In this document: piece by piece, positions 1 to 1,442 of the stretch
How the letters are laid out: every line of letters begins with the position of its first letter
Numbering within the stretch: position 1 is the stretch's first letter
Assembly (NCBI RefSeq): GCF_003611695.1
Contig: NZ_RAWE01000052.1
Coordinates: forward strand, 1 to 52,124
Source of the DNA: Corallococcus carmarthensis
GTDB lineage: Bacteria; Myxococcota; Myxococcia; Myxococcales; Myxococcaceae
DNA: 52,124 nt
Reading direction: 5' to 3'
The notes under the pieces: model-generated
What the model was told of the DNA's origin: nothing
Databases searched by the model: none
The model's input: only the letters and a program-made list of their open reading frames with translations
Position numbers and translations under genes: made by a program

Positions 1-102
1 CTTCCCTCTCGCTGCGCTTTTCAGCGCTGCTCTTGAGGTGAAGCGCCCTCAAAAAATTGACTGCGGGTTTCCGCAATCCATTACTGCTTGGGCTTGCTAT
101 TT

Positions 103-114
103 GGTTTTCAAAGA
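103..114 (-). promoter_or_regulatory. boxA-like antitermination site in a probable rRNA leader
   Basis: Read on the minus strand this is TCTTTGAAAACC, close to the boxA element of rRNA leaders and spacers (E. coli core TGCTCTTTAACAA), where NusB/NusE bind to allow antitermination. It lies downstream of five tandem promoters and points off the left edge, as expected for the leader of a 16S gene outside the window. A copy in a 16S-23S spacer would look similar, but no tRNA-Ile or tRNA-Ala lies nearby. The rRNA itself is not visible. Confidence 0.6.
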
Positions 115-143
115 CCGAGCCGCTTGTTGCGACTTTGTTGCTT

Positions 144-164
144 GCCGGCTTCTTTTCAACCGGC
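144..164 (-). promoter_or_regulatory. boxB-like hairpin before boxA
   Basis: The minus-strand RNA can fold GCCGG/CCGGC with a short extension through one G-U pair and a purine-rich loop. It sits about 30 nt upstream of the boxA-like site, the boxB-boxA order seen in rRNA leaders. No covariation could be tested. Confidence 0.4.
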
Positions 165-174
165 TGGGCTGCAG

Positions 175-203
175 CTTCTATTTCAGTTCGAAGTCAGCGT
201 CAA
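175..203 (-). promoter_or_regulatory. Tandem rRNA-type promoter 5 (nearest the leader)
   Basis: On the minus strand: -35 TTGACG (198-203), 17-bp spacer, -10 TAGAAG (175-180), then a GC-rich discriminator. An A-run lies just upstream of the -35 and could act as an UP element. It is the last of five copies of the same pattern and the closest to boxA. Confidence 0.6.
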
Positions 204-284
204 CTTCGCTTTTTCGTCCTGCGGGCTGCTTCGAAATCCGTCGGCGCCGTCCAGTGACTTCCGCCGCTTCTTTCGAGGGGGCGG

Positions 285-314
285 CTTCTACTTCAGCGCC
301 GCGTTCCCTGTCAA
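285..314 (-). promoter_or_regulatory. Tandem rRNA-type promoter 4
   Basis: Minus strand: perfect -35 TTGACA (309-314), 18-bp spacer containing GAACGCGGC, -10 TAGAAG (285-290), followed by CCGCCCCC. The GC-rich discriminator is typical of promoters under stringent (ppGpp) control; that regulation is inferred. Confidence 0.65.
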
Positions 315-391
315 CCGCTCGTTGTCAGCTTTCCTCACCGCCCGCCGTCCGTGTGTTGCCTGCCGGACTGCTTTCTTCGGTGGGGGCGCGG

Positions 392-421
392 CTTCTATCT
401 CTTCGCCGCGTTCGCTGTCAA
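392..421 (-). promoter_or_regulatory. Tandem rRNA-type promoter 3
   Basis: Minus strand: perfect -35 TTGACA (416-421), 18-bp spacer with the same GAACGCGGC core, -10 TAGAAG (392-397), then CCGCGCCCC. An A-rich stretch (about 440-450) lies upstream of the -35 in the position of an UP element. Confidence 0.65.
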
Positions 422-515
422 CCCGCTCGTTGACTGCCCTATTTCTTTTTCGGTGCTGCACTCTCTCCGAAGTTCCTTCCGCGCCAGTGCGCGGGCTTCG
501 AAGTGAGGGGCGCGG

Positions 516-545
516 CTTCTACCTCCTGGCCGCGTTCGGGATCAA
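516..545 (-). promoter_or_regulatory. Tandem rRNA-type promoter 2
   Basis: Minus strand: -35 TTGATC (540-545), 18-bp spacer with GAACGCGGC, -10 TAGAAG (516-521), then CCGCGCCCC. The -35 is weaker than in copies 3 and 4, but the spacer, -10 and discriminator match them. Confidence 0.6.
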
Positions 546-625
546 CAACCTTCGTCGATCCTTTTCGTTCCCTCTGCGGACTTCCCGAGGCCCGGAGGCC
601 AGCGGTTCGTTGCGCGGGGGGCCAC

Positions 626-654
626 TCTCTAACGCTTCGGGCCAGCGACGTCAA
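626..654 (-). promoter_or_regulatory. Tandem rRNA-type promoter 1 (most upstream)
   Basis: Minus strand: -35 TTGACG (649-654), 17-bp spacer, -10 TAGAGA (626-631), then a GC-rich stretch. It is the most diverged copy. The -10 boxes of the five promoters start at 626, 516, 392, 285 and 175, a regular step of 107-124 bp. Confidence 0.5.
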
Positions 655-845
655 ACCCTTGGTTGCGCAGGAGCTGAGCATTCCGTCTTGGTCATTTGTG
701 CTCCGACGGAAAGAGGGCTCGCCGAGCCCTTCCTGCAGGTCATGGGAAGCAGCATGGGCGGAGGCCTGCATGGGAATTTCCCGCTCCCTCGACCGTGACG
801 GGCGCCACGCGGCCGTGACGCCTCTTGGTGCTAGACGGCTGGGAC
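655..845. other. Intergenic stretch between the promoter array and the first gene
   Basis: No convincing coding region. It contains a perfect 7-bp hairpin (AGGGCTC/GAGCCCT, loop GCC) at 714-730. Reading leftward this is followed by a weak CTTT stretch, so it could shield the promoter array from transcripts entering from the right. Long open frames here and across the promoter array lack ribosome binding sites and protein-like composition. Confidence 0.4.
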
Positions 846-1442
846 ATGCTCCCCGAAAAGATCTACCTCATCGACCTCCAGCCACAGTTGGTGCGGGCCT
901 GGGACGAGGCTTTCGACGCATTCGACTTCATCGCCGTGCGGGAGGAGGACTTCTTCGCCGTCCCCGCGGACGCGATGGTCAGCCCCGCCAACAGCTTCGG
1001 CATCATGGATGGAGGGCTCGACCTGGCGATCCGGGACACGCTGGGCCTCCAGGTGCAGGACGCCGTCCAACGGGCCATCGTGGAGCAGCATCATGGCGAG
1101 CTTCCCGTCGGCACCGCCGTGGTCGTGCCTTCTGGCCACGACCGCTGGCCCTTCCTCGTTGCCGCGCCAACCATGCGCATCCCGGAGAGCGTGTCGCAGA
1201 CCGTCAACGCCTATCTGGCGTTTCGCGCCGCCCTCCTCGCGGTGAAGCGGCATAACGAAGCCGCTGGAGCTCCTGTCATCCGGACGCTGGTGTGTCCCGG
1301 GCTGGGCACCGGCATCGGGGGGCTCGATGCCCGGCGGTGCGCGATGCAGATGTTGCTGGCCCTGAAGCATGTGCTCGCACCGGCCCGCATCCCCTCCTTC
1401 CGCGACATCCACCTCACCCACCGGGCACTCCGCACCGCATAG
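846..1442 (+). CDS. Macro-domain (ADP-ribose-binding) protein
   Basis: A 198-residue protein resembling the macro domain, which binds ADP-ribose and often removes it from proteins or hydrolyses ADP-ribose phosphates. The N-terminal segment VSPANSFGIMDGG (residues 45-57) matches the loop that holds the distal ribose, and CPGLGTGIGG (about 150-159) matches the phosphate-binding loop. No signal peptide is seen, so it is probably cytoplasmic. I chose the ATG at 846; in-frame TTG (825) and GTG (828) add only a few residues and none of the starts has a strong Shine-Dalgarno. It stands alone, divergent from the promoter array and convergent with the next gene. Substrate unknown; the macro-like class is fairly sure. 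Confidence 0.85.
   Translation: MLPEKIYLIDLQPQLVRAWDEAFDAFDFIAVREEDFFAVPADAMVSPANSFGIMDGGLDLAIRDTLGLQVQDAVQRAIVEQHHGELPVGTAVVVPSGHDRWPFLVAAPTMRIPESVSQTVNAYLAFRAALLAVKRHNEAAGAPVIRTLVCPGLGTGIGGLDARRCAMQMLLALKHVLAPARIPSFRDIHLTHRALRTA

Follow-up and report, generated by a model that had tools for sequence, protein, structure and literature searches.

The closest described system to the array analysed here is P4rrnD of Myxococcus xanthus, which is reported to be a sigma-A promoter with an 18-bp spacer, to be enriched for CdnL in vivo, and to be transcribed in vitro by sigma-A polymerase with CdnL, a factor that stabilises the sigma-A open complex in vitro (PMC4182748). P4 is the only rrnD promoter in the assays described there (PMC4182748), and its name suggests that four or more promoters had been recognised. 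Both published P4rrnD primers match one locus of M. xanthus AM003 (L118), around the leader-proximal unit, which is the fourth of four; at two further loci of this strain, L115 with its five units and L071, which is cut, the forward primer matches and the reverse primer does not. Elsewhere, tandem rRNA promoters are described as a pair, P1/P2, at E. coli rrn (PMC5179076) and, as cited in PMC10218544, as a set of five at M. chelonae rrnA. No title or abstract opening among the literature matches listed describes arrays of the present kind family-wide, in a search that left most subscription journals outside.

The window, by which we mean the whole 52,124-base stretch of DNA analysed, is contig C477 of a draft genome of 10.79 Mb in 530 contigs. 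We read its first several hundred bases as an rRNA operon's promoter region (the genome has at least three such operons), in which five sigma-A promoters in series would feed a shared leader with additive or redundant loading, and we put the probability of this reading at roughly 0.8. The features are listed from upstream to downstream on the minus strand.

617..654, minus strand: predicted promoter P1, TTGACG-N17-TAGAGA with a GTGGCCCCC discriminator (-35 at 654-649, -10 at 631-626)
507..545, minus strand: predicted promoter P2, TTGATC-N18-TAGAAG-CCGCGCCCC (-35 at 545-540, -10 at 521-516)
383..421, minus strand: predicted promoter P3, TTGACA-N18-TAGAAG-CCGCGCCCC (-35 at 421-416, -10 at 397-392)
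276..314, minus strand: predicted promoter P4, TTGACA-N18-TAGAAG-CCGCCCCCT (-35 at 314-309, -10 at 290-285)
166..203, minus strand: predicted promoter P5, TTGACG-N17-TAGAAG-CTGCAGCCC (-35 at 203-198, -10 at 180-175)
144..164, minus strand: boxB-like hairpin with a 7-bp stem, GCCGGTT/AGCCGGC, and a 7-nt loop, from folding and alignment
103..114, minus strand: presumed boxA (TCTTTGAAAACC), from sequence
1..127, minus strand: rrn leader, 127 bases identical to the 5' side of contig C284

The array is predicted from these elements to consist of five sigma-70-type promoters. A sequence-only reading had placed five -35/-10 pairs between 175 and 654 on the minus strand, and all five are found there; the spacer core that it saw in three units is GAACGCGGC, common to P2, P3 and P4, and the GC-rich discriminator that it assigned to nearly all units is present in all five. 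Its regular spacing of about 110 bp is only roughly regular, with -10 to -10 distances of 110, 124, 107 and 110. From P1 to P5 the spacers run 17-18-18-18-17, and the 16-bp-spacer unit described below is absent from the window. P1 is the most divergent unit, its -10 (TAGAGA, where P2-P5 have TAGAAG) and its discriminator differing from those of the other four, and P3 fits the family consensus most closely. P5 is the leader-proximal unit and, by position in L118, the counterpart of M. xanthus P4rrnD.

Downstream of P5, the boxB-like hairpin has a folding energy of -12.5 kcal/mol in a 28-nt piece (z -3.71; one of 200 shuffles equally good) and also forms in a 76-nt piece, where z is only -1.30. 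Its stem is conserved, and boxA is unchanged, in the four aligned Corallococcus arrays that extend that far, the window included. We take 103..114 to be boxA, the rrn leader antitermination signal, from the boxA consensus; E. coli rrn leaders have the same boxB/boxA order. The sequence-only reading had put this leader off the left edge, and its position has to be corrected: boxB (164-144) and boxA (114-103) both lie within the window, and the 16S gene alone is beyond it. That reading had made its case depend on a 16S gene immediately to the left, and a complete 16S-23S-5S operon is indeed found 73 bases beyond the edge on C284. This 5,715-base contig carries one each of 16S, tRNA-Ile, tRNA-Ala, 23S and 5S; its 16S gene begins at C284:5516, which is 73 bases beyond the counterpart of window base 1. 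In this genome the window and 16S are connected through an assembly overlap only, whereas in relatives the sequence between them is unbroken, and together the overlap and the single-contig relatives support the reading as rRNA operon promoters. The array thus stands directly upstream of 16S-23S-5S and on the same strand, with five housekeeping-type promoter sequences and with boxA downstream of all of them. Since boxA and boxB lie between P5 and 16S, transcripts from all five promoters would share both.

Contig C310 ends in the same leader as the window, and C499 stops slightly short of it. Contig ends of this pattern are what a short-read assembler leaves when it collapses a repeat, and the exact 127-base overlap suggests the assembler's k-mer size; for annotation, the window edge is an rrn collapse point of the assembly. 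Rfam and tRNA scans of the window gave no matches, as expected with 16S beyond the edge. A crude test for a processing stem between the 130 bases on each side of 16S found no excess pairing (duplex -61.9, mononucleotide-shuffle mean -67.2). On the other side of the array, a Macro-domain gene (825-1442, plus strand; PF01661, 3.1e-12) is divergent from it and is the nearest gene tested on that side; a 106-base segment elsewhere in the genome (C147:1714-1819) is 77% identical to part of this gene.

Two further arrays are present in the same genome, one of six units (C310:60218-61027) and one of five (C499:40858-41263), each with one 16-bp unit. The sample of relatives consisted of rrn upstream stretches together with 52 named loci found by one exact unit pattern, the latter from Corallococcus, Myxococcus, Pyxidicoccus, Hyalangium, Citreicoccus, Myxococcaceae MAGs, two 'Comamonas' contigs, one alphaproteobacterial MAG and one deltaproteobacterial MAG; the two sets share some genomes, so counts are not of independent operons. 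Searches for 16S in relatives were positive in 15 and 18 of 32 genomes, and because arrays were placed by 16S where it was found and elsewhere by promoter matches, the set is biased towards matching arrays. With its own group left out of the model, each of 95 stretches, many of which end at contig ends, held between 0 and 8 units: none in 1, one in 5, two in 13, three in 20, four in 15, five in 20, six in 15, seven in 5 and eight in 1. Among the 52 stretches extending to boxA, 42 have 4-8 units and 10, some of them cut, have fewer; as stretches were picked partly for a unit match, these figures give a range and not a frequency. Five copies are hence hard to call exceptional among these bacteria. 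The arrays are not universal, as one genome (G040) has boxA and 16S with no such promoter unit, and one operon of another (G023) has two units only in 1.1 kb of upstream sequence scanned.

In three single-contig Corallococcus genomes, nine of nine arrays run unbroken into boxA and 16S, with 5, 4 and 6 units in each genome. Their five-unit operons repeat the 17-18-18-18-17 spacer order, as do L035 and L038; operon orthology was assigned here by spacer order, without flanking genes. In support of the sequence-only reading, four Corallococcus genomes (L035, L119, L123 and L125) have five units in this spacer order together with boxA and 16S on a single contig. In an order-wide sample of 117 genomes, a strict pattern, TTGACNN{15,18}TAGAAGCCGC, which would miss arrays built of other promoter sequences, is found in 55 of 68 genomes of the window's family (at least two matches in 49) and is absent from 13, including one of the genus Myxococcus (G049); in other families, eight of 49 genomes have one match, one has two and 40 have none. 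The rrn promoter array of the window is thus conserved, and its kind is common to many relatives, a conclusion that is well supported and mostly expected.

Several loci in this sample call for separate comment. L130 (G007:C1:581000-583000) has five units and boxA in a stretch that holds 500 N, and its 16S start was not found; rRNA may be masked in some genomes, so that 16S searches may undercount. Two contigs named 'Comamonas sp. KCTC 72670' (L079, BNCN01000018.1; L107, BNCN01000009.1) carry Myxococcus-type rrn promoter units, and this genome is probably mislabelled. The alphaproteobacterial and deltaproteobacterial MAGs (L083 and L110) each have a single exact match to the unit pattern, which may be a chance match, the result of misbinning or genuine use. 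In L036 and L039, a TTGAAA-17-TAGACG site that follows the leader-proximal unit by 44 bases passed a cruder scan, fell below the later threshold and was not counted.

Conservation was assessed across the window and three further Corallococcus sequences, including one six-unit array (L095); a fifth, cut sequence and the first 30 aligned bases were excluded. Of 60 hexamer columns, 59 are invariant, compared with a mean of 50.1 for circular shifts, 2 of 605 of which reach 59. The one variable column falls in the P1 -10 (5/6 invariant; -35, 6/6). Both hexamers of every other unit are invariant, as are the P2 discriminator and the entire P3 spacer. These figures indicate that the promoter hexamers of the predicted units are under constraint. 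The invariant fraction is 0.875 for spacers, 0.889 for discriminators, 0.830 for other columns and 0.728 for the A-rich stretch upstream. In that stretch, the A fraction in 5-base bins 6-30 bases upstream of the -35 is 0.43, 0.21, 0.38, 0.32 and 0.33, and it is 0.19-0.24 further out. Composition alone suggests a possible UP-element function, which conservation does not support, since the A-rich region is less conserved (0.73 vs 0.83). In E. coli rrn, FIS sites lie upstream of P1.

Successive -10 elements are never closer than 85 bases in 247 distinct intervals (those of 180 bases or more excluded), and promoter spacing shows no helical phasing at 10.5 bp (R 0.024; 1847 of 2000 jittered sets as high). 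An inverted-repeat operator around the -10, with a spacer arm GCGGC, a discriminator arm GCCGC and the -10 in the loop, was considered and rejected as a conserved structure. Of 178 distinct 18- and 16-bp units, 104 have perfect pairs, and changes were compensatory in 8 cases vs one-sided in 112; in 18-bp units no permutation of 500 reaches the observed level of pairing, which class structure can explain.

An unexpected extra finding is the link between the 16-bp spacer and a TG at -15/-14, which corresponds to an extended -10. Spacers of 235 distinct units are 16 bp in 71, 17 bp in 55, 18 bp in 107 and 19 bp in 2, and TG is present in 71 of 71 16-bp units vs 0 of 162 with 17 or 18 bp, even though unit detection made no use of these bases. 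Units of 16 bp occur in C310 and C499 and also in L077, L096 and L118. GCGG lies at one common offset from the -35 in 64 of 71 16-bp and 69 of 107 18-bp units, but in only 10 of 55 17-bp units; common descent of the spacer classes makes all of these class counts non-independent.

That P1-P5 are chance promoter-like strings of GC-rich DNA deserves mention because consensus scans give false matches easily, and an earlier weight matrix (158 units, Corallococcus included) did pass one further window site at 12 or above. TTGAN{19,21}TAGA matches five times on both strands of the window, all of them P1-P5, compared with a mean of 0.30 and a maximum of 2 in 100 shuffled windows. As this consensus was derived from P1-P5 themselves, a separate matrix covering the -35, -10 and discriminator was also built from 107 units, none of them in the Corallococcus set, and scored P1 at 16.6, P2 at 26.9, P3 at 37.3, P4 at 30.9 and P5 at 28.3, and the best other site in the remaining 51.2 kb, both strands, at 8.9. 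The units thus belong to the P4rrnD-type family (TTGACA-like -35, 16-18 bp, TAGAAG -10, CCGCGCCCC-like discriminator), P2-P5 at 26.9-37.3 and P1 more weakly. Genome-wide, six of six matches to the strict pattern fall in the three rrn arrays (backward control 1), and the looser TTGAN{19,20}TAGAAGC gives 18 matches, 11 in the three arrays and 7 elsewhere (backward control 5). Together with the retention of the units in relatives, these results refute the chance explanation, to which we give practically no credence.

In the reading of five serial sigma-A promoters, five housekeeping promoters would direct transcription through the common boxB-boxA leader into the 16S-tRNA-Ile-tRNA-Ala-23S-5S genes. 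All five combine a good -35 and a spacer of 17 or 18 bp with a non-consensus -10 and a discriminator very rich in G and C, and a short-lived open complex would therefore be expected at each of them. Such complexes would need CdnL and could be shut off by DksA/ppGpp; the genome has three CarD/CdnL/TRCF and five DksA/TraR zinc finger domain matches. With promoters at least about one RNA-polymerase footprint apart, loading could be additive or redundant in a genome with few rrn operons. We infer on this basis that all five promoters fire and where they start, and likewise that they act additively, depend on CdnL and come under stringent control; the array may represent promoter amplification for high output or layered control. 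The far lower score of P1 and its different -10 and discriminator count against a five-promoter model, and polymerases from P1-P4 would have to cross the downstream promoters, so that additivity could be cancelled.

Initiation might instead come mostly from the one or two leader-proximal promoters, the distal ones being ageing duplicates kept or shuffled by recombination between near-identical operons. Unit number does vary within a genome (5, 6 and 5 here; 5, 4 and 6 in each of the three single-contig relatives), window P2 aligns to two adjacent C310 units as unit duplication predicts, the lowest score belongs to distal P1, and occlusion of an upstream tandem rrn promoter is among the points discussed for mycobacteria in PMC10218544. 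Ageing duplicates would not be expected, however, to have hexamers conserved beyond their surroundings in all five units, nor a five-unit spacer order that recurs across Corallococcus genomes, and we think this explanation improbable. A division of labour, in which different promoters serve different growth or developmental states, draws on the sequence classes, namely the divergent P1, the distal 18-bp units, the 16-bp extended -10 units (sister operons only) and the proximal P5 with its own discriminator. Their order is alike across Corallococcus species, and M. kumamotonense rrn promoters are reported to be used differently under stress (PMC10218544); the one -10 common to all but P1 and the GC-rich discriminator in all five speak against specialised units, which we regard as a possible but somewhat unlikely arrangement. 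Serial loading from all five promoters is the reading we prefer.

More speculatively, the rrn operons of Corallococcus, Myxococcus and kin may form the longest natural rRNA promoter chains, built of interchangeable 18-bp and 16-bp/TG cassettes whose number is changed by recombination, with promoter number and not operon number tuning output; we offer this tentatively and consider it doubtful. The largest array has eight units (L096, Corallococcus sp. CA053C) and may, to our knowledge and within a non-exhaustive search, be the longest known. The natural series of about 4 to 8 promoters per operon, with three arrays in each fully examined Corallococcus genome, raises the question of whether promoter number replaces rrn operon number, and the arrays also provide a natural experiment on spacer length vs extended -10.

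Compared with known systems, the window array resembles M. xanthus rrnD in its TTGAC -35, its TAGAAG -10 and its place beside the leader, and differs from M. xanthus L118 in having five units rather than four and, at P5, a 17-bp spacer and TTGACG. It exceeds the two tandem promoters of E. coli rrn. As described in PMC10218544, mycobacterial rrnA likewise places several housekeeping promoters in tandem ahead of a single rRNA operon in bacteria with few operons; it belongs to another phylum and has a CL1 leader motif, and the likeness is one of arrangement.
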